Assembly: GCA_036226585.1 (NCBI GenBank)
Contig: CP108997.1
Location: 6,634,001 to 6,698,000, forward strand
Direction of reading: 5' to 3'
Source of the DNA: Streptomyces sp. NBC_00708
GTDB lineage: Bacteria; Actinomycetota; Actinomycetes; Streptomycetales; Streptomycetaceae
Length of the DNA stretch: 64,000 bases
The translations under genes and the position numbers were made by a program. Each line of letters starts with the position of its first letter. Position 1 is the first letter of the stretch. The notes under the pieces were generated by a model, which was given only the letters and a program-made list of their open reading frames with translations, did no database searches and was not told the origin of the DNA. Shown here one piece after another: positions 35,703 to 59,773 of the stretch.

Positions 35703-35703
35703 G

Positions 35704-36687: not shown

Positions 36688-37461
36688 TGTGAGCCGACCT
36701 TTCTTCAAAGTGGGGCCCGCAGATCCGGTGGGTGACTGGACGCTTGGCCGCGTTGACCGGGCACCGGGTTGCGAGCGCTCGGACAGGACGTGCGGACTCT
36801 CGAGGTCAGAAAATGGGTGGTGCGAAGGCGTTCCGATGAGGGAGGCTGCTGTGTGCCGGCGGTGCTGCACGGGCAGGTGGAGCGGGAGTGAGCAGTGCGC
36901 CGGGCATGAAGCGACAACCTTGCGTCGGAATGAGCCGATTCGTAGCGGCTGCCCGATTCGGCAGCGCCTGTGCTGACGATTCCAACTGCCCGTGATCACG
37001 TCAAGGTTGGCCAGGTCGCGATACGGTTAAGTCGAAGCCGCATACCGGTCATACGGTGCATAAATTCTCAACGCCGTGGTGGACGCGCGGAGAGTGGCGG
37101 TGCACCCGGCCTCCATAAGGTGCATAGGCCACCTTCCTTGCGCATACTCCCCATTCCGGGCCTGCCGCCCGGGGTTCCGTCCCTTCTCGGCCGGCTCGGC
37201 CACCCGGTCGCGCAGCGGCAGTTACGCAAGTCTGCGTGGCGGACCGTAATTCGCTGGTGCGCCCGCCGGCGGCTCTTGTACGTTGTCATCGCGCCCGCGC
37301 CCGGCGATGCGCCCGGCTGCGGCTACTTCCTTCTGACACTCCAAGTGATGCCGCCGCCCAGATTTCTGATCCCGTCGGGCGCGTGCGCCTTCCAAGTTCC
37401 TTGAATCCGGGGGGATTCCCTGTCTTTTCACGCTCGACGCGTCTCCAAGGTCTGGTCCGAG
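36688..37461. other. 774-base intergenic region between the opp operon and the Ro60 gene
   Basis: No convincing protein gene; the 144-codon plus-strand ORF at 36970 lacks a ribosome site and coding-type composition. Structural elements seen: a 10-bp palindrome CGTGATCACG (36991-37000) next to TTGACG on the minus strand (36999-37004), probably opp control; AT-richer sequence at 37021-37075 with two GTGCATA copies (second near 37120); a 6-bp stem with 7-base loop at 37117-37135 (AAGGTG/CACCTT); and a GAATCC-GGGG-GGATTC hairpin at 37403-37418. Because Ro60 proteins bind Y RNAs usually encoded beside them, a small RNA gene here is possible, but I could not trace a complete Y-RNA fold. Confidence 0.45.
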
Positions 37462-39054
37462 ATGCTGGTGGCCCCGCATGTCTCGGCAGGCGCCCGCCAT
37501 CTCGCCGCCACCCGGCCCGTGCCCGGTTCGACCGCACGGAACCTCCTTACGTACGAGGGCGGCCCGGCCTACGTCCGGGAGCCCCGCGAGGAACTCTTCC
37601 TGCTCGCCGTCGCCCACTTCGTCTCCCAGGACACCTTCTACGAGAGCGGCGCGTACCGCGACGACCGGTACACCGCCCTCGTCGCCCGGCTCGCCGTCGA
37701 GCACCCCGCGTGGACGGCCGGCCTGCTGCGCTGGCTGCGCACCGAGGGCAACATGCGCACCGCGTCCCTGGCCGGCGCCGCCGCATACGTACGCGCCCGG
37801 CTCGCGGCCGGGACCTGCGAGGGGCCCTCCAACCGGTCCGTCGTCGACTCGGTGCTCCAGCGCGCCGACGAGCCCGGCGAACTGCTCGCTCACTGGACCG
37901 CGACGTACGGGCGCACGATCCCGCAGCCCGTGAAGCGGGGCGTCGCCGATGCCGTACGCAGGCTCTACACCTCCCGCTCTCTGCTGAAGTACGACACCCC
38001 GTCCAAGGACTTCCGCTTCGGTGACGTGCTCAACCTGGTCCACGCCTCGCCCGACCCGGCCAAGCCCTGGCAGGGGCCGCTCTTCCGGTACGCCCTGGAC
38101 CGCCGCCACCACCCGGAGCGGGCCGAGGCCCCGGCCGGTGACCGGCTGCTGACCGCCCAGCGCGCGCTCCTGGGCACCCCGGCGGACGAACGGCGGGCCC
38201 TGATCACCGGGCCCGGCGGCGCGGAACGCCTCGCCGCGGCCGGCATGACCTGGGAGTCCGTGGCGGGCTGGCTGCACGGGCCCGTGGACGCCGCCGTCTG
38301 GGAGGCGCTGATCCCCGTCATGGGGCCCATGGCGCTCCTGCGGAACCTGCGCAACTTCGACGAGGCCGGGGTCGCGGACGCGGTCGCGCAGCGGGTCGCC
38401 GCGCGCATCGCCGACCCCGGGGAGGTGGCCCGCTCCCGGCAGTTCCCCTTCCGCTACCTCGCCGCCCACCAGCACGCAGGGCCGCGCTGGGCCGACGCGC
38501 TGGAAGCGGCACTGGGCCACAGCCTGGCGAATGTACCGGCCCTGCCCGGCCGGACGCTGGTCCTGGTCGACCGGTCCGACTCGATGTTCTGGGACACCTT
38601 CTCCGAGCGGTCCACGCTCAGCCGGGCCGACGCGGCCGCCGTGTTCGGCACCGCGCTGGCCCTGCGCGCCGAGCAGGCGGACCTGGTGGAGTTCGGCTGG
38701 CGCAGCACCCCCGTGCCGTACGCGCCCGGCGAACCGGTCCTCGACGTGCTGAAGCGGTTCCACAGGCTCGGCGGAACCGACACCACGAAGGCGCTGCGCA
38801 CCCACTACCGGGACCACGACCGGGTGCTGATCGTCACCGACGAACAGGCCCTGCCCTACGGGCCCCAGGGGCCCGACCCGGTGCCGCGTCAGGTCCCGGT
38901 CCACACCTGGAACCTCGCCGGATACCGGCCGGCCCACGGCCCCACCGGCCCGAACCGGCACACCTTCGGCGGCCTCACCGACGCGGCGTTCCGGATGGCC
39001 GTCCTCGTCGAGAACGGCCGCCGGGCCACCTGGCCGTGGGCCGCCGGGGAATGA
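37462..39054 (+). CDS. rsr: Ro60-like TROVE-domain RNA-binding protein (Rsr type)
   Basis: 530 aa. The TROVE HEAT-like ring begins with LTYEGGPAYVREPREELFLLAVAHFVSQ and contains TEGNMRTASLAGAAAYVRARL, LQRADEPGELLAHW, PVKRGVADAVRRLYT and LLKYDTPSKDFRFGDVLNLVH. The C-terminal von Willebrand A-like domain starts near residue 365 and has an intact MIDAS DxSxS (VDRSDSM). Bacterial Ro proteins bind Y RNAs and assist RNA degradation or quality control, sometimes with PNPase. No RtcB or nuclease gene is adjacent. The ATG at 37462 gives a slightly short N-terminus and a weak ribosome site; the in-frame stop at 37402 limits alternatives. It converges on cytX, with stops two bases apart. Confidence 0.92.
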   Translation: MLVAPHVSAGARHLAATRPVPGSTARNLLTYEGGPAYVREPREELFLLAVAHFVSQDTFYESGAYRDDRYTALVARLAVEHPAWTAGLLRWLRTEGNMRTASLAGAAAYVRARLAAGTCEGPSNRSVVDSVLQRADEPGELLAHWTATYGRTIPQPVKRGVADAVRRLYTSRSLLKYDTPSKDFRFGDVLNLVHASPDPAKPWQGPLFRYALDRRHHPERAEAPAGDRLLTAQRALLGTPADERRALITGPGGAERLAAAGMTWESVAGWLHGPVDAAVWEALIPVMGPMALLRNLRNFDEAGVADAVAQRVAARIADPGEVARSRQFPFRYLAAHQHAGPRWADALEAALGHSLANVPALPGRTLVLVDRSDSMFWDTFSERSTLSRADAAAVFGTALALRAEQADLVEFGWRSTPVPYAPGEPVLDVLKRFHRLGGTDTTKALRTHYRDHDRVLIVTDEQALPYGPQGPDPVPRQVPVHTWNLAGYRPAHGPTGPNRHTFGGLTDAAFRMAVLVENGRRATWPWAAGE

Positions 39055-39055
39055 G

Positions 39056-40438
39056 TCAGCGGGCCCGGCGCATCCGCAGCGGGGCGTAGACCACCAGAGC
39101 CGCGAGGAAGGCGACCCCGTATGCCAGGTCCGCCCCGTGCAGCGCCTCGGCCACCGGGCCCACGTACAGGCCGGTGCTCATGAACGGCACCGCCGCCGCG
39201 AAGGCCGCGGCGAACGCGGCGAGCGCCGGCCACCACGGGCGCGGCCGTGCGTGCTCGGCGGCGAGGTCGACGGGGGCGCCGCGCCGGGCCCTCGCCCGGA
39301 CCAGCCAGTCCACGGACACGATCGCCACGAAGCCGGGGATCCAGTAGCCGACGAGGAGCAGCACGTTCTGGAAGCGGGCCGTCGTGTCCGCCGCGTGCAT
39401 CCACAGCACCAGCGGGAAGCCCAGGGCGGCGGCGAGCGCCGCGGCGACCGGGCGGGGCACACGTACACCCATGGTCTGCAGCGCCAGCGAACCGCTGTAG
39501 TCGTTCATCGCATTGCTGCACAGCGCCGCCAGCGCCACCGCGAGCAGCCCGAACGCCCCGAGCGCGCCCCCGCCGAGCAAGGTGTCGACGCCACGCGCGG
39601 TCTGGTCCGTGAAGACCGAGGCGCCCCACAGCCCGATCGTCTGGACCGCCACGAAGGAGGTGCTGATCCCGCCCAGCGTGCACCAGAACATCCGCGGCCG
39701 GGACGTCTCGCGCGGCAGATAGCGGCTGAAGTCACTGGCGTACGGGGCCCAGGACAGCGCCAGACTCAGCGCGATGGTGCAGGTCAGGACGAAGGCACCG
39801 GCCCGGTCAGCGCCGTGCACGGAACCGCTGGTCACCGGGTCGACACCGTTCAGGAGCTTCGTCGCGAGGACGGCGAAGGCGGCGGCCAGCGCGAACGTCA
39901 TCACGGTCTGGAGCCGGTGGATCACCTCGTAGCCCAGCACACCGAGCGCGCCCTGCGCGGCCATCATGACCAGGACCCCCAGCCAGAACGGCCAGCCGCA
40001 CAGCTGCGCCAGCGCGTCCCCGCCGAACAGTCCGATCAGTGCGTCCCAGGCGATCGACGACAGCCACTGGAGCGCGCCCGGCAGCACCACACCCGGCCCG
40101 AACGCCAGCCGTGCGAGCGGCAGTTGGCCGGACCCGGTCCGGCTGCCCCAGGTGCCGAGATACGCGGTGGGCGCGGCGCCGAGCAGGGTGCCGAGCACGA
40201 CGGCGGCCAGGGCGGTCGCGAAGTCCAGGCCCAGCGCGATGCCGACGGTGCCGGTGAAGACACCGGTCATGGTCAGGTTGGGCGCGAACCAGACGGTGAA
40301 CAGCCGCCCGGCGCCGCCGTAGCGCCGGTCCTCGGGGACCGGGGCTATCCCGTGCGCCTCGACGCGCAGATCGCCGGGTGCGGTGGGCATGCGCCCGCCG
40401 AAAGCGGCGCGCTCGTCCCGGGCATGCGACAACGACAT
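39056..40438 (-). CDS. cytX: NCS1-family permease, probable hydroxymethylpyrimidine transporter (CytX)
   Basis: 460 aa, about 12 membrane segments. The opening PVPEDRRYGGAGRLFTVWFAPNLTMTG and the later LSWAPYASDFSRYLP and SNAMNDYSGSLALQT segments are NCS1 (cytosine/allantoin/thiamine precursor) signatures. A TPP riboswitch ends five bases upstream of its start, which points to uptake of the thiamine pyrimidine moiety rather than cytosine or purines. It is monocistronic. Confidence 0.9.
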   Translation of the reverse strand: MSLSHARDERAAFGGRMPTAPGDLRVEAHGIAPVPEDRRYGGAGRLFTVWFAPNLTMTGVFTGTVGIALGLDFATALAAVVLGTLLGAAPTAYLGTWGSRTGSGQLPLARLAFGPGVVLPGALQWLSSIAWDALIGLFGGDALAQLCGWPFWLGVLVMMAAQGALGVLGYEVIHRLQTVMTFALAAAFAVLATKLLNGVDPVTSGSVHGADRAGAFVLTCTIALSLALSWAPYASDFSRYLPRETSRPRMFWCTLGGISTSFVAVQTIGLWGASVFTDQTARGVDTLLGGGALGAFGLLAVALAALCSNAMNDYSGSLALQTMGVRVPRPVAAALAAALGFPLVLWMHAADTTARFQNVLLLVGYWIPGFVAIVSVDWLVRARARRGAPVDLAAEHARPRPWWPALAAFAAAFAAAVPFMSTGLYVGPVAEALHGADLAYGVAFLAALVVYAPLRMRRAR

Positions 40439-40442
40439 GAAG

Positions 40443-40520
40443 ACATCCCTCCGCCAGTGCTAACTGGTTCAGGTTCGACGGGTGTGATCTCAGCCCCTGT
40501 GCGGGGCACCCCGTGTCCGG
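40443..40520 (-). promoter_or_regulatory. TPP riboswitch (THI box) with embedded Shine-Dalgarno
   Basis: On the minus strand the leader reads GGGGTGCCCC, then GGGGCTGAGATCACACCC (CTGAGA at 40489-40494), then GAACCTGAACC (40467-40475 region), CAGTTAGCACTGGCGGAGGGA and a closing GATGTC. These are the conserved P2, pyrimidine-binding and pyrophosphate-binding parts of the thiamine pyrophosphate aptamer; P1 can form between GACA (from 40518) and TGTC (to 40443). GGAGGG (40448-40453) is inside the aptamer and is also the ribosome site of cytX, nine bases before the ATG. Ligand binding should therefore block translation directly. Confidence 0.95.
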
Positions 40521-40578
40521 TGTGGCGGCCAGGATAGCCGGAGGGATGTGCGGACCGGACCGGGGGTCCGCCGCGGTT

Positions 40579-41547
40579 TCAGAGCGGGAGCGCGCAGCGG
40601 AAACCGCCGTGACCTGTGCTGCTGTCGGGAGTGTTGGACGTACGGGCGGCGACCCGGTAGCGGTTGCAGTACGAGCGGTGGCACAGGTGCGAGCCGCCGC
40701 GCAGCACCCGGTTGCCGCCCTCGGCCGGCCCGGCCGGATCGATCCGCGTCTCCGGGCGGTCCGGTACGTGCCAGTCGGCGCTGAACCGGTCGGCGCACCA
40801 CTCCCACACGTTGCCCGACACGTTGTACAGGCCATAGCCGTTGGGGGCGTACGCCTTCACGGGCGCGGTGCCCGCGTAGCCGTCCTCCCGGGTGTTGCGG
40901 ACCGGGAAGTCGCCCTGCCAGATGTTGCAGCGGTGCCGCCCTTTCGGGGTCAGCTCGTCGCCCCAGGGGAAGCGGGCCCGGACCAGCCCGCCCCGCGCCG
41001 CCTTCTCCCACTCGGCCTCGGTGGGCAGCCGCTTCCCGGCCCAGCGGGCGTAGGCGGTGGCGTCGTTCCACGACACATGGACCACCGGGTGGTCCCGGCG
41101 GTCGCCGATCGTGGTGCCGGGCCCCTCGGGCGCCCGCCAGCAGGCCCCGGCCACCGCGCTCCACCAGGGCGCGCCCGGAACCGTCCCCGGGAGTACGGCG
41201 TGGCGCGCCTCGCGGGGGACGAAGGCGCCGAACACGTAGGACCAGCCGATGAGTTCGGCCTCGGTGCGGTAGCCGGTGGCCTTCACGAAGCGGGCGAACC
41301 CGGCGTTGGTCACACAGGCCACGTCGATCCGGAACGGGGCGAGCACCACCTCCCGGACGGGCCCCTCCCCGTCGGCGGGGAACGCGTCCGGGTCGGCGCC
41401 GCCCATCAGGAACGGCCCGCCCGGCACGACGACCGTGCCGCGCAGCAGGTCGGCGGTGCTCCACTCGGGCACGGCGAAGTCCGCCGGGGGAGTGGTGGTG
41501 GCGGTGGCGGCGGCGCTCTCGCGGCCCGGCCCGCAGCAGGCGCTCAT
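40579..41547 (-). CDS. Formylglycine-generating enzyme (sulfatase-activating enzyme)
   Basis: 322 aa from ATG at 41547, overlapping the ROK gene by 4 bases. It has the FGE-sulfatase fold: VVVPGGPFLMGG near the start, HPVVHVSWNDATAYARWAGKRLPTEAEWEKAARGG in the middle, GLYNVSGNVWEWCADRF, and the active-site motif SHLCHRSYCNRYRV, with Cys289 and Cys294 (CxxxxC) that bind copper and activate oxygen. It converts the Cys of CxPxR in sulfatases to formylglycine in the cytoplasm. Its target is almost surely the divergent sulfatase at 42978. Closely similar to the enzyme known from S. coelicolor. Confidence 0.94.
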   Translation of the reverse strand: MSACCGPGRESAAATATTTPPADFAVPEWSTADLLRGTVVVPGGPFLMGGADPDAFPADGEGPVREVVLAPFRIDVACVTNAGFARFVKATGYRTEAELIGWSYVFGAFVPREARHAVLPGTVPGAPWWSAVAGACWRAPEGPGTTIGDRRDHPVVHVSWNDATAYARWAGKRLPTEAEWEKAARGGLVRARFPWGDELTPKGRHRCNIWQGDFPVRNTREDGYAGTAPVKAYAPNGYGLYNVSGNVWEWCADRFSADWHVPDRPETRIDPAGPAEGGNRVLRGGSHLCHRSYCNRYRVAARTSNTPDSSTGHGGFRCALPL

Positions 41548-42773
41548 CGGGATGTCCCCTCGTTGCCGTCGGCGGCTTCCGGCGCCCGTCGGTCGAGCAG
41601 TTCCGCCAGGTCCTGGCCCGTGGTGCGCAGCAGCAGCGCCACACCGCCGAGCGCGGCGGCGTCCCCGCCGAGGGTGGAGCCGCGCACCTCGATGGAGCGC
41701 GGGGCGGACGGCAGCGAGAGCGTGGCGATCTGTTCCCTGATCGGGGCGAGGACGAGGTCGTCGAGCACGGCCGGCTCCCCGTAGACGACGACGCACTCCG
41801 GATCGACCTGGGCGGCGAGCGCGGCGAGCACCCGGCCGGCGGCGACGGCCGCGCCGCGCAGGACGTCGGCCACCTCCGGCCGGCCCTCGGCGGCGAGGCC
41901 GATCAGCTCGTCGGCGTCCCGGACGCCCACGCCGCGCTCGGCGCAGGAGGCGAGCAGGGCCGGGACGGAGATCAGCCCCTCCAGGCAGCCCCGGCCCCCG
42001 CAGTGGCAGGGCTTGCCCTCGGGGTCGCAGCTGGTGTGCCCGATCTCGCCGGCCGCGCCGTGGGCGCCGTGCACCAGCGAGCCGTTGACGACGAGTCCGC
42101 CGCCGACGCCCTGGGACCAGCGCAGGTAGACAGCGTTGTCGAAGCCCCGTGCCGCCCCCCAGGTGACCTCGGCGAGCGCGGCCAGCCGCGAGTTGTTGTC
42201 GGTGAGCACGGGGGCGCCGAAGCGCCGGCCGAGTTCCGCGGCGACGTGCCCGGCGAACGGCGTCATCGTGTGCCGGTCGGCGGACGCCGGATTCTGCACG
42301 AAGCCGGGCAGGCCGAGGCCGATGCCCTGGACCGGGGCGAGGCTGATGCTCTCGCGCCGCACCAGCTCCTCCACGGCGCGGATCGCCTGCGCGGCGCGCT
42401 CGGCGGCCTGGCTGTCCGCCGGGACCGGGGCGCTGTACCGGCCGACGATCTCGTGGGCGCAGTTGGCGACGACCACGTGGATGTGGTGGCGCTGGAGGTC
42501 GATGCCGATCAGTTCGGCGCCGCGCGAGTTGAGCGCGATCTCCAGGGCCGGCCGGCCGCGCCCCCTCGGCTGCCCGGGATCGGGGGCCGGATGCTCCACG
42601 ACGGCGTTGCGTTCCAGCAGGTCGGACACGATCGCGAACAGGGTCGTACGGGACAGCCCGACCCGGTCCTTGAGCTCGCCCCGGCTGAGCGCCCCCGACC
42701 TGCGCAGCTCGCCCAGTACGGCGGCTTCATTGGCTCTGCGCAGGCGCTGGAGGGCATCGGTGCGTTCGGTCAT
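41544..42773 (-). CDS. ROK-family transcriptional repressor
   Basis: 409 aa. N-terminal winged HTH (about residues 10-65, with GALSRGELKDRVGLSRTTLFAIVSDLLE), then the ROK sugar-kinase-like fold: IGIDLQRHHIHVVVAN, QGVGGGLVVNGSLVHGAHGAAGEIGH and the zinc motif CHCGGRGCLEG. ROK repressors (NagC, Mlc, XylR) respond to sugars or sugar phosphates. It is divergent from the sulfatase operon and coupled to the FGE gene, so it probably controls both, with a saccharide as signal. Confidence 0.9.
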   Translation of the reverse strand: MTERTDALQRLRRANEAAVLGELRRSGALSRGELKDRVGLSRTTLFAIVSDLLERNAVVEHPAPDPGQPRGRGRPALEIALNSRGAELIGIDLQRHHIHVVVANCAHEIVGRYSAPVPADSQAAERAAQAIRAVEELVRRESISLAPVQGIGLGLPGFVQNPASADRHTMTPFAGHVAAELGRRFGAPVLTDNNSRLAALAEVTWGAARGFDNAVYLRWSQGVGGGLVVNGSLVHGAHGAAGEIGHTSCDPEGKPCHCGGRGCLEGLISVPALLASCAERGVGVRDADELIGLAAEGRPEVADVLRGAAVAAGRVLAALAAQVDPECVVVYGEPAVLDDLVLAPIREQIATLSLPSAPRSIEVRGSTLGGDAAALGGVALLLRTTGQDLAELLDRRAPEAADGNEGTSR

Positions 42774-42819
42774 GGACGCATGGTCGATCGGTCAAGGGCT
42801 TTCTGTCAACGTGCCGGAC

Positions 42820-42877
42820 GAATTCACACAATGTTTATTCCGGAGGGTTGACGTAAAAAAGTGGGCCTCCCTACAGT
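42820..42877 (+). promoter_or_regulatory. Sulfatase operon promoter and AT-rich operator candidate
   Basis: TTGACG (42848-42853), 18 bases containing an A6 tract, then TACAGT (42872-42877) make a good promoter for the gene at 42978. The AT-rich stretch just upstream (about 42820-42838, AATTCACACAATGTTTATT) is a loose inverted repeat and the likeliest ROK operator. TTGACA occurs on the minus strand near 42805-42810 for the ROK/FGE genes. Confidence 0.55.
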
Positions 42878-42977
42878 TCCCGTCAATCGCCGGAGCCGGA
42901 ACGCGTCGAGCACCCCGCACCTGCCCGGCCGGCTCCCGTCACCACCCCTGAGCACGACCACCGAAAGGGCGGCCCGA

Positions 42978-44465
42978 GTGGCTCCGCGCAACGTCCTGTT
43001 CCTGATGACCGACCAGCACCGGACCGACACCCTGGGCTGTTACGGCAACCCGCTCGTCGAGACCCCCGCCCTGGACGCCCTCGCGGCCGAGGGCACCCGC
43101 TTCGACCGCTTCTACACCCCGACCGCGATCTGCACCCCCGCCCGCGCCTCCCTGGCCACCGGCCTCCACCCGTTCCGCCACGGCATGCTCAACAACCCCG
43201 AGCGCAACGGCGGCAGCAAGGACGAGCTGTCCGACGAAACCCCCATGCTGTGGCGTCAGCTGACGGGCCAGGGGTACGCCGTCGGTCACGTCGGCAAATG
43301 GCACATCGGCCGCGAGCGCGGCCCCGAGTTCTACGGCCTGGACGGCGAACACCTGCCCGGCGCGCTCAACCCCGTCCACCACCCCTCCTACGAGAAGTGG
43401 CTCGACGAGAACGGCTTCCCGCCGTTCGCGGTGCGCGAGCCCGTCTTCGGGACCGCCGCCAACGGCACCGGGCGCGGCCACCTCATCGCCGGCCGTCTCC
43501 AGCAGCCCGCCGAGGCCACCGTCGAGGCGTACCTCACCGACCGCACCCTCGCCCTGCTGGACCGCTACGCCGCCGGCTGGAAGGCGACCGGCAAGCCGTT
43601 CATGCTGTCCTGCCACTGGTACGGCCCGCACCTGCCGTACCTGATCCCCGACGCCTACTACGACCTGTACGACCCCGACGACGTACCGCTGCCCGCCTCC
43701 ATGGCCGAGACCTTCGCCGGGAAGCCCGAGGTGCAGCGCCAGTACAGCGCGTACTGGTCCTCCGACGACTTCGACGCCGCCGCCTGGCGCAAGCTGATCG
43801 CCGTCTACTGGGGCTACGTCACGATGATCGACCACCAGGTCGGACGCATCGTCGAGGCGCTCAGGGGCCACGGGCTGTGGGACGACACCGCGGTCTTCTT
43901 CACCGCCGACCACGGCGAGTTCACGGGCGCCCACCGGCTCAACGACAAGGGCCCGGCGATGTACGAGGACATCTACCACATCCCCGGCATCGCCCGCGTC
44001 CCCGGCGCCCCCGCCCAGGTCAACGACGACTTCGCCACCCTCGTCGACCTCAACCCGACCATCCTGGAACTCGCCGGCGCGCCCGTGCCCGACCTCTGCG
44101 ACGGCACCAGCCTGCTGCCCCTGCTCCACGGCGGGAGGGCCGACGCCACCCGCGACCAGGTCGTCACCGAATTCCACGGCCACCACTTCCCGTACTCCCA
44201 GCGCATGATCCGCGACCGGCGCCACAAGCTGGTCCACAACCCGGAGAGCGTGCACGAGCTGTACGACCTGGAGGCCGACCCGCACGAACTGCGCAACGTC
44301 TACGAGGCGCCCGCCTACGCGGAGGTCCGCCGCGACCTCACCGTCCGGCTCTATCGCGAGCTGCTGCGCCGGGGCGACCCCGCCTACACCTGGATGAGCT
44401 ACATGGCCGACATCGGCGGCGGCCGGGCGGCCGACGTCGACGGGGTCGCGGAGGAAGTGGCATGA
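42978..44465 (+). CDS. Type I sulfatase (formylglycine-dependent), cytoplasmic
   Basis: 495 aa from GTG at 42978 (AAAGGG eight bases upstream). The start leads straight into [20 protein letters not shown], with metal ligands Asp12 and Gln13. The sulfatase signature CTPAR has Cys52, the residue converted to formylglycine; GHVGKWHIG and [11 protein letters not shown] supply further active-site residues. There is no signal peptide, so it works inside the cell on imported sulfate esters. It heads an operon with a sulfonate-type ABC importer, each gene overlapping the next. The overall pattern is like choline-sulfatase and glycan sulfatases; the substrate is not certain. Confidence 0.93.
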
Positions 44466-45313
44466 ACGTGCAGGACAAGCCCCGCGCACCGCACCGGGCG
44501 AAACCCCCGGGCCCGCCGGCCGTCCCCGAACGCGCCGCCAGGAAGCCGAAGAAGAAGCGCGGCACCGGCCGGCTCACCTCCGTACTCCTCGGCCTCGCCT
44601 CCGCCGCGCTCGGACTCCTCGCCTGGACCGCCCTCGCCGGCAGCGGCATCAACGGCTTCCCCGGGCCCGTCGTCGTGGCCCGCAGGGCGGGTGAACTCAT
44701 CGCGGACGGCACGCTGTTCGAGGACGCGGGCGCCAGCCTGAAGCGCGTCCTCACCGGCTATGTGCTCGGCGTCGCCCTCGCGATCCCCGTCGGCTTCGTC
44801 ATGGGCTGGTACCCGGTCGTCCGCCGGCTCATCGAGCCCTGGCTCCAGTTCTTCCGCATGGTGCCGCCGCTCGCGATCATCCCGCTCGCCATCGTGCTCA
44901 TGGGCATCGACGAGACCCCGAAGATCTTCGTGATCTTCCTGGCCGCGTTCCTGTCCTGCGTCGTCTCCACCTTCCAGGGCGTCGTCGCCGTCGACGTCAC
45001 CCTCGTCAACGCGGCCCGCGTCCTCGGCGCCCGCGACCCCCAGGTCTTCCTCGGCGTCGTCGTGCCCGCGTCCACCCCGTTCATCCTGGTCGGCATGCGC
45101 ATCGGCCTCGGCGCCTCCTGGGCCACCGTCGTCGCCGCCGAACTCATCGCCGCCCAGGGCGGACTCGGCTACCGGATGCAGCAGGCGCAGGTCTACTACG
45201 ACCTGCCGACCATCTTCGTCCAGCTCATCGCGATCGGCGCGATCGGACTCGCCATGGACCGGCTGCTGCTCCTCGCCGAGCGCCGGCTCACCCACTGGCA
45301 GGAACGGCGGTAA
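44462..45313 (+). CDS. ABC transporter permease, SsuC/TauC type
   Basis: 283 aa, start overlapping the sulfatase stop (ATGA). A basic, Pro/Lys-rich N-terminus (about 40 residues) precedes six membrane segments. The ATPase-contact loop reads [30 protein letters not shown], as in sulfonate, taurine, nitrate and thiamine-precursor importers. It should carry the substrate that the sulfatase hydrolyses. Confidence 0.9.
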
Positions 45314-45316
45314 CCC

Positions 45317-46099
45317 ATGCCCAGCATCAACTTCCACGACGTGACCATGGACTTCGCGGTCAAGGACGGCGGATTCCTCGCCCTGGACCACGTCGGCCTG
45401 GACATCGAGGACGGCGAGTTCGTCACCGTCGTCGGCCCCTCCGGCTGCGGCAAGAGCACCCTGATGAACATCGCCGCGGGACTCCTCGACGCCACCGGCG
45501 GCGAAGTCCTCGTCAACGGCGCACCCGTCAGCGGCCCCGCACCCGAACGCGGCGTCATCTTCCAGCAGTACGCCCTCTTCCCCTGGATGACCGTCGCCGC
45601 CAACGTCGAGTACGGCCTCAAGGTCGCCGGGGTCAAGAAGCGGGAACGCCGTCGCCGGGCCCGCGAGGTCATCGAGCTCGTCGGCCTCACCGACTTCGCC
45701 GACGCCCTGCCCAAGACCCTCTCCGGCGGCATGAAACAGCGCTGCGCCATCGCCCGCGCCTACGCCGTCGACCCCAAGGTGCTCCTGATGGACGAGCCCT
45801 TCGGCGCCCTCGACTCCCTCACCCGGGTCCGCATGCAGGAATCGCTCCTGGACACCTGGGGCCGCGACCGGCGCACCGTCATGTTCATCACCCACGACGT
45901 CGACGAGGCGGTCTTCCTCGCCAACCGCGTCGTCGTCATGGCGGCCCGCCCCGGCCGCGTCCACACCGTCGTCCCGGTCACGCTGCCCTACCCGCGCACC
46001 GAGGAACACCGTCTGTCGCCCGAGTTCGCCGCACTGCGCACCCAGGTGTGGCACGCCGTGCACCACCAGCCCGCCCCGCTCGAAGGAATCGCGTCATGA
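45317..46099 (+). CDS. ABC transporter ATP-binding protein, SsuB/TauB type
   Basis: 260 aa. Walker A GPSGCGKS (about residues 40-47), Q-loop FQQYALFPWMTV, signature LSGGMKQR, Walker B VLLMDEPFGALD and the His of FITHDVDEA are all intact. It pairs with the SsuC-like permease three bases upstream and overlaps the binding-protein gene by 4 bases. Confidence 0.93.
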   Translation: MPSINFHDVTMDFAVKDGGFLALDHVGLDIEDGEFVTVVGPSGCGKSTLMNIAAGLLDATGGEVLVNGAPVSGPAPERGVIFQQYALFPWMTVAANVEYGLKVAGVKKRERRRRAREVIELVGLTDFADALPKTLSGGMKQRCAIARAYAVDPKVLLMDEPFGALDSLTRVRMQESLLDTWGRDRRTVMFITHDVDEAVFLANRVVVMAARPGRVHTVVPVTLPYPRTEEHRLSPEFAALRTQVWHAVHHQPAPLEGIAS

Positions 46100-47124
46100 A
46101 GCCGATCCGTGCCGTCCGCCGCCGCGCGGCGGGCCTGTTCCTCGCCCTGGCACTCGTCTCCACCGCCGCCGGCTGCGGGGACGACTCCTCGTCCGACACG
46201 GCCGGCGGCCCGGAGAAGGTGACCTTCGGGTACATCGCCGACTACAGCGGCGCCGTCGCCCTCGCGGTCGCCCGGAAGCAGGGCCTCTGGAAGAAGGCCG
46301 GAGTCACCCCCGAACTCAAGGTCTTCACCAACGGACCCCTCCAGGTGCAGGCCCTGGGCACCGGTGACCTGGACTTCGGCTACCTCGGCCCCGGCGCCCT
46401 CTGGCTGCCCGCCTCCGGCCGCGCCTCCATCGTCTCCGTCAACATGCTGGGCCTCGCCGACCGGGTCATCGCCCGCCCCGGCTCCGGCATCGACGGGCCC
46501 GCCGACCTCAAGGGCAAGAAGGTGGCCGTCGCCGAGGGCACCTCCGGCGACATGATCCTCAACCTCGCGCTCGCCGAGGCCGGACTGAAGCCCGACGACA
46601 TCACCAAGGTCGCCATGGACGCCTCGACTGTCGTCACGGCGTTCTCCTCCGGCCAGGTCGACGCGGCCGCCACCTGGTACCCGCTGATCGACACCATGAA
46701 GAAGAAGGTCCCCGGCCTCAAGGAGATCAGCAGGACCGAGGACTACTACCCGAAGCTCACCTTCCCCAATGTCTTCGTCACCCAGCCGAAGCTGGCCTCC
46801 TCCGACCCCGCGCTCGTCAAGAAGGTGACCGGAGTCCTCAAGGCGGCCGGTGACTGGATCGCGGCCCACCCCGAGGAATCGGAGTCGGTCACCGCCGACT
46901 TCCTGAAGCTCCCGGCCGGGCAGCTCAAGGGCGCCACGAAGTACGTCAAGATCCTGCCTTCCGACGAGCTGACGAAGCTCACCCGGGACGGCACGGTCGA
47001 CGGCTGGTTCGACGAACTGGCCGCCACCTTCCACCGGATGGGCAAGCTGCCCGACCCGGGCAAGGCCCAGGACTACTACCTCGGCGACCTCTACACCGCA
47101 GCCCGAAAGGCGGACCGCTCATGA
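46096..47124 (+). CDS. ABC transporter substrate-binding lipoprotein, SsuA/NMT1 type
   Basis: 342 aa. Signal peptide with lipobox STAAGC, lipid-modified Cys at residue 27. The mature protein has the SsuA/THI5-like type II binding fold: VTFGYIADYSGAVALAVARKQGLWKKAGV, LGTGDLDFGYLGPG, LKGKKVAVAEGTSGDMIL and FSSGQVDAAATWYP. Family ligands include alkanesulfonates, taurine, aryl sulfates and pyrimidines; next to a cytoplasmic sulfatase a sulfate ester is the best guess. It overlaps both neighbours by 4 bases. Confidence 0.9.
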   Translation: MKPIRAVRRRAAGLFLALALVSTAAGCGDDSSSDTAGGPEKVTFGYIADYSGAVALAVARKQGLWKKAGVTPELKVFTNGPLQVQALGTGDLDFGYLGPGALWLPASGRASIVSVNMLGLADRVIARPGSGIDGPADLKGKKVAVAEGTSGDMILNLALAEAGLKPDDITKVAMDASTVVTAFSSGQVDAAATWYPLIDTMKKKVPGLKEISRTEDYYPKLTFPNVFVTQPKLASSDPALVKKVTGVLKAAGDWIAAHPEESESVTADFLKLPAGQLKGATKYVKILPSDELTKLTRDGTVDGWFDELAATFHRMGKLPDPGKAQDYYLGDLYTAARKADRS

Positions 47125-49373
47125 ACGACTCGCCGCACCACGACACCACCGCACCCGACGGGGTGGGACGACGCGGCTTCCTCGTCGGAGCCGCGGGGCT
47201 CGCCGGGGCCGCCCTCCTGGCCGGGACCACCACGACGGGGGCCGCCGCGGCCGGCGGACCGCTCCGGGTCACCTCCGGCGGCCGGGCCCGCGCCTCCATC
47301 CTGTGGTGGGGCGACGGCAGCGCCGCGTTCGCCGCCGCCGAGCTGCGCGACTACCTCCGCGCGATCACCGGCGTCCGCCTCCCGCTGCGCACCGCCCCCG
47401 CACCCGCCGGCCCGCCCGAAGGCGTCACCGGCCTGGTCGCCCTGCACACCGGCACCGGCGGCGGCCGCATCCCCGCGGACCGCCTCGCCGACGCCGGACG
47501 GGAACTCGCCGGCGCCCCCGAGGACTCCTTCACCCTGCTCGGCGACGACACCTGGCTGCTGCTGACGGGGCACGGCGACCGGGCCCCGCTGTACGCGGTG
47601 TACGCCCTCCTGGAACGGGCCGGTGTCCGCTTCTTCGCCCCCGCCTTCCCCGCGTACGAGGGCCACCACGAACACGTACCGCACACCCGCGACCTCGCCC
47701 TGCCGCCCGTACGCCACACCGACCGGCCCGCCACCGGGCTGCGGCGGCAGTACGCCGAGGAGGGGTTCAGCCACACCGCCGCCAGCCTGCCGCCGCTGCT
47801 CGACTGGATGGCCAAGAACCGGCTCAACACCTTCGTGTACCCGACCGACTACCTGGGCCTCGGCGTCACCGCGTACGACAAGGTGCGCGACGTACTGGCC
47901 CGCGAGGCCGGCCGGCGCGGCCTGCGGATCGAGACCGGCGGCCACGGCTACGACAGCTTCCTGCCCAGGGCCGACTACCCGCAGTACTACGAGTCGGGTG
48001 GCCCGGTCTTCGACCTCTACAACCCCGAGGCGCTCGACGCCTATGTGGGCAAGGTCGTCGCCTTCCTCCGCGAGCGCCCCGAGATCACGGTCTTCGACTG
48101 CTGGCCCCCGGACGTCGGCGCCTTCCAGAAGCCGGTCCTCGACCGGTACGGCACCGCCTCCAACGCCGAGTCGGTCGTCGTCAACGAACTGGCCCGGGTG
48201 CTGCGCCGGGAGCTGCCCGGCGTCCGCGTCGAACGCATCGCGTACGCGTCCACCGTGCGCCCGCCCGACGCGGAGCACGCGAGCGACCCCGACGTCATCG
48301 TGGACTTCGCCGCCTACTCCCGCACCTACGACGGCCACCTCGGCGACCCGGCCGTCAAGCCCAACGTCCCCTTCGCGGACGCGCTGCGCGCCTGGCGGGC
48401 CACGCACACCGGCCCGCTCGCCATGTACGAGTACTACCGGCGCTACCGCTGGCGCAGCCTGCCCGTGCACCCGCTGACGACCATCGCGGGCGACCTCGCG
48501 TTCGAGGCCGGGCTCGGTCTCGACGGGATCGGCATGTACAGCGAACCCGGCGACTGGATCACGTACGAACATGTGCAGAGCCTGGTCGCCGCGCTGGCCT
48601 GGGACAGCTCCCTGGACGGGGACGCGTTCCTCGACGGCTATCTGCACGCCCGCTTCGGCGAGGGAGCGGTGCCCGCGATGCGCCGCTACTACGACCTGAC
48701 GCGCCTGGACCCGGACACGCACACCCCCGCCGCGCTCACCACCGCGTACGGACAGGCCCGTGCGGCGCTGGGGGAGGCGGCCGGGCAGGTGACGGACGCG
48801 GCGCCGCGCACGGTCCTGGACCGGCTGACCCGCAACGCAGACCTCGCGCTCGCCGACATGCGCATCGGCCTGGCACCGGCCGGCAGCGCCGAACTCGACG
48901 CCGCCCGCCGGGAGTACCGCGCGCTGGTCCACCGCAACCGGTTCAACGGGATCTGCCTGCCGAACATGCAGGCGTGGTGGCGCTGGAACGGGCCGCAGAG
49001 CCAGGCCCCGTACGACGACGCGACGATCCGGCAGGCCGTCGTCGACACCTACGCGAGCCCCGCCGCCGGGTTCGGCGACCCGGGGATCGTCGTGCTGGAA
49101 CGCGGCGGCGACACGGTGCGGCTCGACGTGGAGGCCCAGGACGTCGACTTCACCGGCCACACCGTGCTCTGGACGGCCACCGCACCGGACGGCGTCCGCG
49201 TGGAGCCGTCCCACGGCACGCTGCGGGTGCGCGGCACGCGCGGCGACGCCCAGCGGGTCGCGGTCGGCGCGACGGCGGAGGCGGCGGCCGGCACCGGCCT
49301 GATCACCCTGGAGTTCCGGCTCGCGGACGGCACACCCCTCGTCGCGTCCCAGGTGGTGACCGACATCCGCTGA
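47121..49373 (+). CDS. Tat-exported DUF4838-domain protein, putative glycosidase-like
   Basis: 750 aa. A twin-arginine signal (GRRGFLVGAAGLAGAALLAG) ends near residue 45. A GH20-like N-terminal sandwich (about residues 60-190, with FAAAELRDYLRAITG and APLYAVYALLERAGVRFFAP) is followed by the DUF4838 barrel-like core (MAKNRLNTFVYP, VTVFDCWPPDVG-like ITVFDCWPPDVGAF, YEYYRRYRWRSLPVHPLTTIAGDLAF). Several Asp, Glu and Trp residues could form a saccharide site, but the DUF4838 catalytic residues are not established. Being in a sulfatase/GH35 operon and exported, it probably acts on a glycan outside the cell. Confidence 0.85.
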   Translation: MNDSPHHDTTAPDGVGRRGFLVGAAGLAGAALLAGTTTTGAAAAGGPLRVTSGGRARASILWWGDGSAAFAAAELRDYLRAITGVRLPLRTAPAPAGPPEGVTGLVALHTGTGGGRIPADRLADAGRELAGAPEDSFTLLGDDTWLLLTGHGDRAPLYAVYALLERAGVRFFAPAFPAYEGHHEHVPHTRDLALPPVRHTDRPATGLRRQYAEEGFSHTAASLPPLLDWMAKNRLNTFVYPTDYLGLGVTAYDKVRDVLAREAGRRGLRIETGGHGYDSFLPRADYPQYYESGGPVFDLYNPEALDAYVGKVVAFLRERPEITVFDCWPPDVGAFQKPVLDRYGTASNAESVVVNELARVLRRELPGVRVERIAYASTVRPPDAEHASDPDVIVDFAAYSRTYDGHLGDPAVKPNVPFADALRAWRATHTGPLAMYEYYRRYRWRSLPVHPLTTIAGDLAFEAGLGLDGIGMYSEPGDWITYEHVQSLVAALAWDSSLDGDAFLDGYLHARFGEGAVPAMRRYYDLTRLDPDTHTPAALTTAYGQARAALGEAAGQVTDAAPRTVLDRLTRNADLALADMRIGLAPAGSAELDAARREYRALVHRNRFNGICLPNMQAWWRWNGPQSQAPYDDATIRQAVVDTYASPAAGFGDPGIVVLERGGDTVRLDVEAQDVDFTGHTVLWTATAPDGVRVEPSHGTLRVRGTRGDAQRVAVGATAEAAAGTGLITLEFRLADGTPLVASQVVTDIR

Positions 49374-49474
49374 CCGCCACCCGAACACCGGCATCCACCG
49401 ACCCGCACGGCCCAGCACGACCGGCTCCACGGACCACGGAAACGCACCATGAGCACACCAGCGAAAGGGCGTCC

Positions 49475-52400
49475 ATGACCCACCACCCCCACCGGCCGCG
49501 CACGCGGTCGCGCCTCTTACGGCGGCGCGCGGTCGTCGCCTCTCTGGCCACCGGACTCGCACTGTCCCTGTTCTCCCCGACCCCGGTCTCCGCGCACCCC
49601 GCGCGGCAGGCCGGGCCGGCGGCCGGGACCACCACGCACCGCTTTCCGGGCAACGACCACCGCCCGCACACCGTCACCTGGGACGAGAAGTCGCTCAGGA
49701 TCGACGGCGAGCGGCTGGTCGTGTGGTCCGGTGAGTTCCACTACTGGCGGCTGCCCAGTCCCGACCAGTGGCGCGACGTCCTGCAGAAGCTCAAGGCCTC
49801 CGGCTTCAACGCCGTCTCGCTCTACTTCTTCTGGGGCTACCACTCCTCGAAGCCCGGCTCGTACGACTTCAGCGGCGTCCGCGACATCGACCGGCTGCTG
49901 ACCATGGCCGAACAGGAGGGCCTGTACGTCATCGCCCGCCCCGGCCCGTACATCAACGCCGAAGTGAGCATGGGCGGGCTTCCCCCGTACATGAGCACCT
50001 ACGGCGGCGAGCAGCGCACCGCCGACCCGCAGAACCTCGCGGCCGACCTGGAGTGGCTCAAGGCCGTCAACGGCATCATCGGGCGGCACCAGATCACCGA
50101 CGGGGGCGGCAGCGTCATCGCGTACCAGGTGGAGAACGAGCAGATCGACAACTCGGCCGCGCACATCGACTACATCGAGAAGCTGCAGAGCGCCGTCGTC
50201 GGCCAGGGCATCACCGTGCCGCTGTTCCACAACGACTACGGCAACGGTCACGGCTGGAACGCCCCCGGCGGCCCCGGCGGTTCCAAGCTCGGCCTCTACG
50301 CCTTCGACACCTATCCGCTGGGCTTCGACTGCGCAGGGGCCCGGAAGAAGCTGAGCGACTACGAGTCCCGGGTGCGCGGCTATTCGCCCGGCACCCCGGT
50401 CTTCGTCGCGGAGGGGCAGGGCGGCGCGTTCACCGCGTGGGGCCGCGACTTCCAGACGAGCGAGTGCGCGAAGTTCGCCGACGAGGCGTTCACCCGCCAG
50501 TTCGCCGTGCACAACCTCGCCAACGGGGCCACCCTCTCCAACACCTACATGGAGTACGGCGGCACCAACTGGGGCTGGACCGGCGACCCCGGCTCCGGCT
50601 TCACCTCCTACGACTACGGGGCGGCGATCGCCGAGAACCGCGCGATCACCCCGAAGCTCGCCGTGCAGAAGGAGTTCGGCTACCTCCAGAACGCCGTCCG
50701 GCCGATCGCCTCCGCCGTGCCCGACACCGCCCCCGAGGTCACCGTCACGGGCGGCGGCCCGGTCAAGGCCCAGCAGCGCCGCTCCACCGAGCAGGCGGAC
50801 GAGACCTCGGTGTCCGGCAACGGCATGCGGCTCATCACGCTGCGCCACCCCGACTCCAACGACACCACGACCAGCCGTGTCACCTTCCCCCTGGACCTGG
50901 GTTCCGGCGCCGCGTACGCACGGGTTCCGCAGAAGCCGGACACCGCCGTCACGGTGGACGGGAGGGACGCCACCGTCCTCGTGGCGGACTACGCCTTCGA
51001 CACGCACCGACTTGTCTACTCCACCTCGCAAGTGCTCACCCGGCTGACCGCCGGACGCGATCTGCTCGTCCTCGACGGAGCGAAGGGCACGGACGGCGAA
51101 ACCGTCCTGCGGTACGCGAAGCGGCCCCGGGTCACCACCGTGGACGGCGACCCGGTGGAGACCACCTGGGACCCCGTACGCAAGGACCTGCGGCTGAACT
51201 ACGCGCACGGAGCCGCCAGGACCGTACGCATCACGGGCGGCGGAGGCCGGGACCTCACCGTTCTGATCGGCGACCGGGAAGCCGTGGCGACGATCTGGCA
51301 GCTCGACGCGAGCGGCGGCCAGGTCCTGGTCACCGGCCCGGAACTCGCCCGCACCGCCCGGGTGTCGGGAAGCCGGCTCGACCTCACCGGGGACACCCGT
51401 GAGGCCGGCCCGGTGCGGGTCTTCGCCCCCGCCGGGGTGCGGACCCTGACCTGGAACGGCCGGACCGTAACGGTGCGGCGCGACGCCGCCGGGGCGCTCA
51501 CCGGCAGCCTGCCGGGCCCGGCCGAGGCCGAGGTACCCACCCTGGACACCTGGCGCACCTCCGCCTCCGACCCCGAGCGCACGCCGGACTTCGACGACTC
51601 CACGTGGGTCCGGGCGGACCGCACCGCCGCCGCCAACACCCGGCACGGGCCCGGCGCGGCCTCCGGAGTCGTCCTGGACACGGACGAGTACGGCTTCCAC
51701 GAGGGCGACACCTGGTACCGGGGCCACTACACGCCCACCGAGGCGGGCAGCACCGTCGAGGTGACGGTCAGGACGGGGACCGCCGGCCACGCCCTGGTCT
51801 GGCTCGACGGCCACTACCTGGGCGCGCAGGGCGACGGCAGCGCCACGTACACCGTCCCCGCGGGCCTGGCCGAACCCGGCAAGCCCGCCGTACTGGCGAT
51901 CCTGGTACGGAACATGGGCCAGTACGAGGACTGGAGCTCCGACGGCCGCTCCAAGGGCGGACGCGGTCTGGCCGATGTCGACATCGCCGGCGCCGGGAAG
52001 ACCGAGTGGCGGATCCAGGGCGCCGAGGGCAGCGACCGGCCCGCCGACACCGCACGCGGGCTCTACAACAACGGCGGCCTGTACGGGGAACGCCTCGGCT
52101 GGCATCTGCCGGGTGCGCCGGACGCGTCATGGGCGCGCACCGCCTCGCTCAAGAGCGACCGGCCGGGCGTGCGGTGGTACCGCACCACGGCCCGGCTCGA
52201 CCTGCCCGGGGGCGCCGACACCGCGCTCGGACTGCGCATCGAGGACGCCGGGGGACGGACGGACAAGTACCGTGTCCAGATCTTCGTCAACGGCTGGAAC
52301 ACCGGGCAGTACGTCAACAACGTGGGCCCACAGCAGGAGTTCGTCATCCCGTCCGGCTTCCTGGATCCGCACGGCGAGAACACCGTCGCGCTCGCGGTCA

Positions 52401-52534
52401 CCGCGGAGCAGAGCGGCGCAGGTCCCGATGCGGTAGCGCTGGTGAACCAGGGCACGGTCCTCGGCGGTGTCCCGGCCGGGCAGAACGCCGCACCGGGCTA
52501 CGCGGCGGTGCGCGACAGGCGTACGGGCCGGTAG
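49475..52534 (+). CDS. Secreted GH35 beta-galactosidase
   Basis: 1019 aa from ATG at 49475 (AAAGGG upstream). The frame is open for another 2 kb upstream, but that text is the shadow of the DUF4838 gene. A signal peptide with Arg-rich start (LLRRRAVVASLATG...SAHP, Tat-like) covers about 41 residues. GH35 hallmarks: VVWSGEFHYWRLP, FNAVSLYFFWGYHSSKPGSYDF, YQVENEQ with acid/base Glu222, and VFVAEGQGG with nucleophile Glu313. Two or more beta-sandwich domains follow (about residues 400-1000). It removes non-reducing beta-galactosyl residues. A 100-base gap separates it from the DUF4838 gene. A galactose-containing sulfated glycan is a plausible substrate for the whole locus. Confidence 0.92.
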   Translation: MTHHPHRPRTRSRLLRRRAVVASLATGLALSLFSPTPVSAHPARQAGPAAGTTTHRFPGNDHRPHTVTWDEKSLRIDGERLVVWSGEFHYWRLPSPDQWRDVLQKLKASGFNAVSLYFFWGYHSSKPGSYDFSGVRDIDRLLTMAEQEGLYVIARPGPYINAEVSMGGLPPYMSTYGGEQRTADPQNLAADLEWLKAVNGIIGRHQITDGGGSVIAYQVENEQIDNSAAHIDYIEKLQSAVVGQGITVPLFHNDYGNGHGWNAPGGPGGSKLGLYAFDTYPLGFDCAGARKKLSDYESRVRGYSPGTPVFVAEGQGGAFTAWGRDFQTSECAKFADEAFTRQFAVHNLANGATLSNTYMEYGGTNWGWTGDPGSGFTSYDYGAAIAENRAITPKLAVQKEFGYLQNAVRPIASAVPDTAPEVTVTGGGPVKAQQRRSTEQADETSVSGNGMRLITLRHPDSNDTTTSRVTFPLDLGSGAAYARVPQKPDTAVTVDGRDATVLVADYAFDTHRLVYSTSQVLTRLTAGRDLLVLDGAKGTDGETVLRYAKRPRVTTVDGDPVETTWDPVRKDLRLNYAHGAARTVRITGGGGRDLTVLIGDREAVATIWQLDASGGQVLVTGPELARTARVSGSRLDLTGDTREAGPVRVFAPAGVRTLTWNGRTVTVRRDAAGALTGSLPGPAEAEVPTLDTWRTSASDPERTPDFDDSTWVRADRTAAANTRHGPGAASGVVLDTDEYGFHEGDTWYRGHYTPTEAGSTVEVTVRTGTAGHALVWLDGHYLGAQGDGSATYTVPAGLAEPGKPAVLAILVRNMGQYEDWSSDGRSKGGRGLADVDIAGAGKTEWRIQGAEGSDRPADTARGLYNNGGLYGERLGWHLPGAPDASWARTASLKSDRPGVRWYRTTARLDLPGGADTALGLRIEDAGGRTDKYRVQIFVNGWNTGQYVNNVGPQQEFVIPSGFLDPHGENTVALAVTAEQSGAGPDAVALVNQGTVLGGVPAGQNAAPGYAAVRDRRTGR

Positions 52535-52633: not shown

Positions 52634-53563
52634 TCAAAGCTCCTTCCTCAGATCCGGGCCCCGCTCCCGGCTCCGTCCCTGATCCCTGCGGGGCGGCTGA
52701 CTGTCGCCGGCCCGACCACGCGCGGAGCGAGCTGCCGAGGCTGGAGGGAATCCCAATGCCGCGGTGCGGGCACGATCGAGGGCCGCCTCATCGGATCGTT
52801 GCTCCGGCTCGGAGGGGTCGTCGGCTGTCCGGGCACGCTCCGTCGGCTCAGCGGCCGTTGGGGCGCGTTCCGTCGTAGGTGCGGCCTCTCCGCGGGAGGC
52901 ACCTACGTCGGCCTGCGCCCTGCGCGCCGCATCGATCTGGCTTGCTCTGAGCATGTTGAGCCGGTGACCGAGTTCGGCGTCAGGTCGCAGGGCATACGGC
53001 GGGATCGCCTTCATGGGCCCTTCCTTCGGATCGTCCGGATCCACATCCGAGTCGTCCTTGCGGGGTTGCTCGGGAGGTGCACCACTGCCGGACGCGGCGT
53101 CGTCCCGCACACCGGCCGGGATGTCTGCGGCGGCGTGGTCGTCTTCCGGCCGGGGGTCCTCCCGGCCTTCGGCGGATTCCGTTGTCCCGGTGGGTGCCGC
53201 GTCCGTGGAGTCCGTGGACCAGGGATCTACCGGCGCATCCTGATCCTGGTCCTCGGCCCCCGTTTCTGCCAGCGCATCGTTCGCGGTGTGTGGGGTGTTG
53301 TCTTCGGTGGGGTCGTCAGCAGCAGGTGGATGTTCGTCGTTCTGGTGGTTCTCGTCGGGGGCGTCGAACCGCACGTCTTCCGCTGTGGCCCCGGTGGACG
53401 AAACATCCGGATCGCCCAAGGACTCCACGGTGGCAGGGCCTTCCTCGGGAGCGTCGAATGCCACGTCCTCCGCCCCGTCCACCGCGCCGTCCGAGCCCTC
53501 CCCGCTTTCCGCCCGGTGCGGTGTCTCGGATCCGGAGTCCGCGCCGAAACTGCCGTCGATCAC
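52634..53563 (-). CDS. Acidic, intrinsically disordered protein of unknown function (third gene of HerA operon)
   Basis: 309 aa, GTG at 53563 with GGGAGGA five bases upstream and overlapping the HerA-like stop by 4 bases. The first 170 residues are highly acidic and low-complexity, with two copies of a short motif (AEDVAFDAPEE and AEDVRFDAPDE). A short ordered-looking piece follows (MKAIPPYALRPDAELGHRLNMLRASQIDAARRAQ, shown here only as landmarks MKAIPPY and RLNMLRASQI), and the C-terminus is basic (Arg-rich, ending GPDLRKEL). No domain is recognised. The charge polarity suggests a linker, chaperone or adaptor for the ATPase or for nucleic acid. An internal ATG in front of the MKAIPPY segment could start a shorter product. 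Confidence 0.7.
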   Translation of the reverse strand: MIDGSFGADSGSETPHRAESGEGSDGAVDGAEDVAFDAPEEGPATVESLGDPDVSSTGATAEDVRFDAPDENHQNDEHPPAADDPTEDNTPHTANDALAETGAEDQDQDAPVDPWSTDSTDAAPTGTTESAEGREDPRPEDDHAAADIPAGVRDDAASGSGAPPEQPRKDDSDVDPDDPKEGPMKAIPPYALRPDAELGHRLNMLRASQIDAARRAQADVGASRGEAAPTTERAPTAAEPTERARTADDPSEPEQRSDEAALDRARTAALGFPPASAARSARGRAGDSQPPRRDQGRSRERGPDLRKEL

Positions 53564-59109: not shown

Positions 59110-59159
59110 ACCCACGAAGTTAACGCCGCCTATGACTCCTAGGCAAACGATTAATTTGT

Positions 59160-59666: not shown

Positions 59667-59773
59667 GGTGCTCCTCTGGCGGGGGCGGTCCGGTTCGGGC
59701 GTCGAGCCTACGGGGATGCCCGGCCCTGCCCCGCCGGACGGGCGCTACGGGGGCGCCGCGCGCACCGCCGCGC

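Follow-up and report, generated by a model that had tools for sequence, protein, structure and literature searches.

We analysed a window of 64,000 nucleotides from Streptomyces sp. NBC_00708 (assembly GCA_036226585.1, contig CP108997.1, positions 6,634,001 to 6,698,000; genome of 7.65 Mb), in which eight genes between positions 40579 and 52534 combine a sulfatase and a sulfatase-activating enzyme with a repressor, an ATP-binding cassette (ABC) importer and two secreted glycosidases. This locus probably works as one module, in which a sulfated N-acetylhexosamine is cut free, taken into the cell and stripped of its sulfate, the likeliest sugar being N-acetylglucosamine (GlcNAc)-6-sulfate; that the substrate is a sulfated saccharide of some kind can be said with considerably more confidence. 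Gene content, gene order, leaders and conservation are read directly from the DNA, and from these we infer the substrate, the position of its sulfate, the direction of transport and the regulation. All eight genes had been named in a preliminary description of the window, and Pfam and NCBIfam bore out the identity, place and strand of each. Together with one intergenic element they are as follows (GH, glycoside hydrolase).

40579..41547 (-): FGE-type (formylglycine-generating) sulfatase-activating enzyme, 322 amino acids (PF03781, E 1e-80; CHRSYC at residue 289)
41544..42773 (-): ROK-family repressor (Mlc/NagC-like), 409 amino acids (PF00480, E 2.9e-47; NCBIfam Mlc/NagC below cut-off)
42848..42877 (+): promoter-like element TTGACG-N18-TACAGT, ROK/sulfatase intergenic region (alignment of 10 loci; putative function)
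42978..44465 (+): cytosolic S1-type sulfatase, 495 amino acids, GTG start (PF00884, E 2.7e-49; PF16347, SGSH_C)
44462..45313 (+): ABC permease, TauC/SsuC/SaoP-like, 283 amino acids (PF00528, E 2.2e-23; NCBIfam)
45317..46099 (+): ABC ATPase, TauB/SaoA-like, 260 amino acids (PF00005, E 1.4e-32; NCBIfam)
46096..47124 (+): substrate-binding lipoprotein, SsuA/TauA family, 342 amino acids (SsuA_fam TIGR01728, 202 bits, cut-off 163.5)
47121..49373 (+): secreted DUF4838 (GH163-type) glycosidase, 750 amino acids (DUF4838, 53.8 bits, cut-off 26.6)
49475..52534 (+): secreted GH35 beta-galactosidase, accessory, 1019 amino acids (PF01301, E 8e-75; PDB 1tg7, E 1.9e-139)

The sulfatase carries CTPAR at residues 52-56 together with a Sulfatase domain and is therefore of the S1 (formylglycine) type. 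By eye it has no leader from its refined start, in agreement with the earlier claim that it lacks a signal peptide. This start, a GTG at 42978, is supported because two related loci (L014 and L017; loci are numbered L and genomes G below) have ATG there. The adjoining protein is an aerobic FGE, with an FGE-sulfatase domain and, at residue 289, the CHRSYC cysteines, which we take to be the active site. It had been called the sulfatase's own activating enzyme. It does adjoin the sulfatase locus, but it is one of three FGE-domain genes in the genome and is thus not the sole activating enzyme. The genome contains another sulfatase region (L104, G000:C1:6955501-6975500) with its own FGE, 59% identical to that of the window, and a major facilitator superfamily transporter. 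By family, substrate aside, the importer is of the SsuA/TauA type: the binding protein belongs there by sequence, exceeding the SsuA_fam cut-off, and by fold, and the best NCBIfam matches are SaoP/TauC for the permease and SaoA/TauB for the ATPase, both below those models' own cut-offs. The permease was scored on a longer frame with an identical stop, and its start was then refined to 44462. ATGA overlaps join ROK to FGE, sulfatase to permease, ATPase to binding protein and binding protein to DUF4838; between DUF4838 and GH35 there are 101 base pairs. A lipobox-like sequence (...VSTAAGC) in the binding protein, an RR (Tat-like) leader on the DUF4838 protein and a leader on GH35 were all recognised by eye. 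The TTGACG-N18-TACAGT element is conserved across the 10 aligned loci, and a scan of the ROK-sulfatase intergenic DNA for a near-perfect operator palindrome found none.

We then asked how constant this gene set is. Binding-protein searches at E <= 1e-60 gave matches in 10 of 394 class genomes and in 37 of 295 genus genomes, the window's genome being in both sets; further loci came from a DUF4838 search (47 loci) and a GH20 search, and all binding-protein places were expanded into neighbourhoods. The presence of each family was scored per locus by tblastn with a threshold of 70 bits, within the retrieved stretch. L130 and L132 were left out as duplicates of L012 and L011, and L104 because it has no binding protein, while the short contigs L095, L105 and L165 were counted nevertheless. 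Among the resulting 66 distinct loci with a binding protein, the sulfatase was found in 64, ROK in 60 and FGE in 41. The midpoints of the binding-protein and sulfatase genes were 6.0 kb apart at most, and the two loci in which no sulfatase was found are L103 and L027, whose stretch starts at the importer. The binding-protein search alone tells the same: 45 distinct places after removal of two duplicates, 44 of them with a sulfatase. As a control, the seven SsuA_fam and six sulfatase matches of the window's genome form one close pair, namely this locus, and all other pairs are more than 100 kb apart. The grouping of importer and sulfatase is not chance, and this distance, together with the frequency of ROK, makes the importer plus the sulfatase (hereafter the cassette) a conserved unit. 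The glycosidases are more variable, with GH163 in 17 loci, a motif-bearing GH20 (see below) in 8, GH43 in 36 and GH35 in 9; one of the first three was present in 61 loci, and none of the sought glycosidases was found in 5. The gene-order search recommended earlier upheld the pairing of importer and sulfatase, with a glycosidase partner that varies. Sulfatase, SsuABC-type importer and secreted glycosidases recur together in several actinobacterial families and one Paenibacillus. Since a cytosolic formylglycine-type sulfatase keeps company with this importer and with secreted glycosidases, a sulfated-saccharide importer, as already suggested, is the best reading.

The glycosidases point to the sugar. 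GH163, GH20 and GH84 are N-acetylhexosaminidase families, so that the common sugar would be GlcNAc or N-acetylgalactosamine. Of two Paenibacillus loci, L021 combines the importer with GH163 and L027 combines it with both GH20 and GH163, a GH84 is inserted between GH163 and GH35 in L131, and an extra GH20 follows GH163 in L015; the sulfate motif described below is absent from the GH20s of L015 (GH20c) and L027 (GH20d). GH92, a mannosidase family, adjoins GH163 in L014, L016 and L017, which would suit an N-glycan substrate.

An indication of the sulfate position comes from the GH20 proteins. In the 6-sulfo-GlcNAcase BbhII, the Q and W of the motif YFPQ(X10)WAC recognise the sulfate, and other GH20 members that cleave 6-sulfo-GlcNAc are named in the accessible portion of the same 2024 paper (PMC11659886). 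The cassette-adjacent GH20s of L094 and L098 carry YVPQ(X11)WAC, and YxPQ...WAC is present in cassette-linked GH20s of eight loci (L094, L098, L147, L148, L149, L151, L154 and L155). Eight GH20s were aligned, those of the cassette-linked L094, L098, L149, L151, L154 and L155 (all X11) and of L156 and L158, which are not linked; L147, L148, L150, L152 and L153 were scored by the motif alone. The top solved structure for the profile of these eight is PDB chain 7wdt, which reads YFPQ(X10)WAC with Q and W aligned, and Q614, W626 and the catalytic pair D535-E536 are invariant among them. In 1hp4, a plain hexosaminidase, the W is present and PQ and C are missing, so that Q together with C is the distinguishing part of the motif. 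Searching the family of G323 for GH20 produced matches in 11 of 180 genomes and, apart from L094, nine further YxPQ(X11)WAC GH20s: six beside a cassette (L147, L148, L149, L151, L154 and L155), two not (L150 and L152), and one at a contig end (L153), with no cassette on the available side. In four cassette genomes used as a control (G323, G174, G783 and G675), 22 GH20 matches, with pieces merged by hand, make 18 genes; the motif occurs in four of them, exactly the cassette-adjacent four, which strengthens the association of motif and cassette. On these grounds we propose that GlcNAc-6-sulfate, or a small saccharide containing 6-sulfated GlcNAc, is imported by the window's locus and desulfated in the cytosol, and the window's sulfatase would handle the same product, GlcNAc-6-sulfate, as the sulfatases of the GH20 cassettes.

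Phylogeny is consistent with this proposal. Two trees, one built from 56 sulfatase rows and one from 58 binding-protein rows, with eight later-added loci left out, both sort by glycosidase, one clade having GH163 or GH20 and the other GH43. The glycosidase labels change 5 times in the first tree and 6 times in the second, where shuffling gave means of 22.9 and 24.5; none of the 200 shuffles made for each tree reached so low a number. Near-copies among the rows inflate this contrast. L020, which has GH163, falls in the GH20 clade of the sulfatase tree with moderate support (87/75). At the 39 positions that split the two sulfatase classes, the sulfatase of L098 shows the hexosaminidase-class residue 20 times and the GH43 type 7 times; positions of this kind include H64, H104, H168, Y259 and N322 (numbering of the window's sulfatase). 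Identity to the window's sulfatase is 77-80% beside seven of the motif-bearing GH20s, 62% in L098 and 56-62% in the GH43 class. The latter comprises L096, L097, L099-L102, L105-L127, L129, L163 and L166-L170, sometimes with an added GH2; its large GH43 is arabinanase-like and its small one barely matches an arabinofuranosidase. It is likely that this sister class handles a different sulfated sugar.

Several observations nevertheless weigh against GlcNAc-6-sulfate as the substrate. The best PDB match of the sulfatase is an exo-2S-iota-carrageenan sulfatase (6pt4, E 1.2e-61), and the GlcNAc-6-sulfatase 5g2v ranks behind it (4e-43). The motif is somewhat weakened by its W, which is not specific, as 1hp4 has it too, and by a spacing of X11 in the cassette GH20s versus X10 in BbhII. 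It is also found elsewhere: no cassette lies within roughly 10 kb of the motif-bearing GH20s of L150 and L152, and the ten neighbour genes scanned around L150, L152 and L153 include no sulfatase or importer. The related GH20s of L156 (YLDQ...WAC), L157 and L158 (YLPQ(X9)WAC) also have no cassette. Conversely, the motif is present in 0 of the 6 GH20 matches of the window's own genome, and the window has GH163; the proposal thus supposes, from the swap, that GH163 replaces GH20 there as the releasing enzyme and accepts sulfated GlcNAc. The trees are not perfectly sorted either. L019 has a GH163 neighbour, yet its sulfatase and binding protein fall on the GH43 side; of the 39 class-split positions, its sulfatase has 28 with the GH43-type residue and 3 with the hexosaminidase type. 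L098 forms a long branch in the sulfatase tree as well as in the binding-protein tree. The binding protein has only 4 positions that split the hexosaminidase and GH43 classes. Finally, this importer was seen in only 15 of the 47 DUF4838 loci, some of which are on short contigs (L016 starts inside the DUF4838 gene), and the idea that every DUF4838 protein travels with it was rejected. As for the two motif-bearing GH20s away from a cassette, a ROK gene lies near that of L152 and an AraC-type regulator takes this place in L150; L158 lies in a genome of 2.3 Mb (G263).

The releasing enzyme in the window deserves comment. DUF4838 had been presented as a family still lacking a role. However, a table of PMC9870897 already lists it under the name GH163, and an activity is described in the accessible part of PMC10154615, where a Bacteroides thetaiotaomicron GH163 cuts GlcNAc-beta-1,2-Man in N-glycan antennae and removes N-acetyllactosamine (LacNAc) antennae. 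The kinship of the window protein with this enzyme is at the Pfam level, and the activity was reported there on LacNAc antennae, not on sulfated GlcNAc. GH163 activity is thus predicted for the window protein from its DUF4838 membership, and its modelled fold appears near GH84/GH20, with GH115/GH67 scoring almost as high. The module could work as follows. Outside the cell, GH35 may take off a capping galactose, and the DUF4838/GH163 enzyme would free GlcNAc that still bears its sulfate, or else a short sulfated fragment. The SsuA/TauA-type lipoprotein would capture the sulfated sugar for import by the permease and ATPase, and the FGE-activated cytosolic sulfatase would then desulfate it, yielding GlcNAc and free sulfate for metabolic use. 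The divergently transcribed ROK protein would keep the operon off in the absence of the sugar or of a product derived from it.

Galactose must be weighed as the alternative sugar. The same machinery could serve a sulfated galactose or galactose-containing disaccharide, with GH35 and DUF4838 trimming a galactan, and a galactose-containing glycan was indeed the substrate first put forward. In the window and in eight near relatives, all close Streptomyces, the DUF4838 gene is followed by GH35, and the carrageenan-acting enzyme mentioned above is the sulfatase's best structural match. However, GH35 was not found in the retrieved stretches of the other 57 loci, loci of the same sulfatase clade repeatedly contain hexosaminidase families, and DUF4838 is listed as GH163, for which an endo-GlcNAcase is described in the literature accessible to us. 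With GH35 rare and an N-acetylhexosaminidase family as the constant partner of the window's class, GlcNAc is a likelier sulfated sugar than galactose; galactan was dropped as the leading substrate, and we regard the galactose alternative as unlikely.

A second possibility, to which we give similarly little weight, is general sulfur scavenging, in which aryl or alkyl sulfate esters or sulfonates would be imported, the sulfatase would free sulfate, and the glycosidases would be bystanders. The binding protein does belong to the SsuA/TauA family, whose canonical members carry sulfonates. Against this, the few glycosidase families found beside the cassette in nearly all loci track its phylogeny, and ROK accompanies it almost as often. 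Moreover, none of the eight SsuD-family matches in the window's genome reaches the cut-off or lies close to the locus (TauD was not searched for). A thiamin-pyrimidine (THI5/NMT1-like) importer linked to the sulfatase by accident is hardly credible: the importer has an NMT1 domain match, pyrimidine-binding folds are among its fold matches, and a thiamin pyrophosphate (TPP) riboswitch adjoins FGE, but this riboswitch points away from the sulfatase locus, and the reading was rejected.

The import and desulfation of sulfated GlcNAc can be compared with known systems. SsuABC/TauABC sulfonate importers have the same binding-protein, permease and ATPase families, but here the partner genes encode a sulfatase and glycosidases. 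In Pseudomonas aeruginosa, atsRBC encodes an SsuABC-like importer beside a sulfatase, for aryl and alkyl sulfates, and is not known to be accompanied by glycosidases or ROK. Among the GH20 6-sulfo-beta-GlcNAcases (BbhII, SGL and Bt4394), the likeness is to BbhII, whose motif residues recur in the cassette GH20s of eight relatives; the window differs by having DUF4838/GH163 in that place. A functional likeness is found in Bifidobacterium breve UCC2003 (ats clusters; genes Bbr_0851-0853): B. breve grows on GlcNAc-6-sulfate, and one of its gene clusters encodes a transport protein, a sulfatase and an enzyme that activates it, according to the accessible portion of PMC6045583; ats1 and ats2 are described with a transport system and a regulator in that of PMC9239261. 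Uptake followed by desulfation is therefore probably not new in principle. In the B. breve descriptions, however, the transporter, known by its annotated name, is a 'glucose/fructose transport protein' versus the SsuABC-type importer here, and the activator is an anaerobic sulfatase-maturating enzyme (anSME) versus FGE, no radical-SAM (S-adenosylmethionine) match being present in the eight scanned genes of our locus. The window locus would work like an ats-type cluster but is not a member of that group: it differs in transporter family, FGE, actinobacterial spread, glycosidase swapping and use of GH163. A 'sulfate ester transport system' is listed in the accessible text of PMC12369383, and no description of this gene set was found in the open-licence literature, which does not prove it unpublished.

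More tentatively, we speculate that these importers may form an SsuABC/TauABC-like family dedicated to sulfated monosaccharides and paired with a cytosolic sulfatase, in which the secreted glycosidase is swapped per sugar: 6-sulfo-GlcNAc would call for GH163 or GH20, and a sulfated pentose or a comparable sugar for GH43. The actinobacterial GH163 clade would then be a sulfoglycosidase outside GH20. The GlcNAc-6-sulfate reading itself would allow a substrate class to be assigned to a branch of binding proteins that database records now name 'aliphatic sulfonate' binding, and would provide soil actinobacteria with a specific way of using GlcNAc-6-sulfate taken from sulfated glycans. It also predicts that an actinobacterial GH163 clade cleaves sulfated GlcNAc.

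The TPP riboswitch (40429-40523, minus strand, 72.5 bits) reads into an NCS1/CytX-like permease gene (39056-40438) and lies outside the sulfatase locus; beside this permease is a gene for a TROVE-domain (Ro60-like) protein (37462-39054, plus strand). Farther upstream, a peptide-type ABC operon (30909-36999, minus strand) encodes SBP_bac_5, a fused double ATPase and two permeases. Downstream of GH35, a 1244-amino-acid frame (53560-57294, minus strand) has weak HerA/FtsK ATPase and SGNH matches, and genes for an FBP_C zinc-finger protein (58615-59808) and a Band 7 protein (60670-61677) lie on the same strand, the Band 7 gene being found downstream in L007 too.

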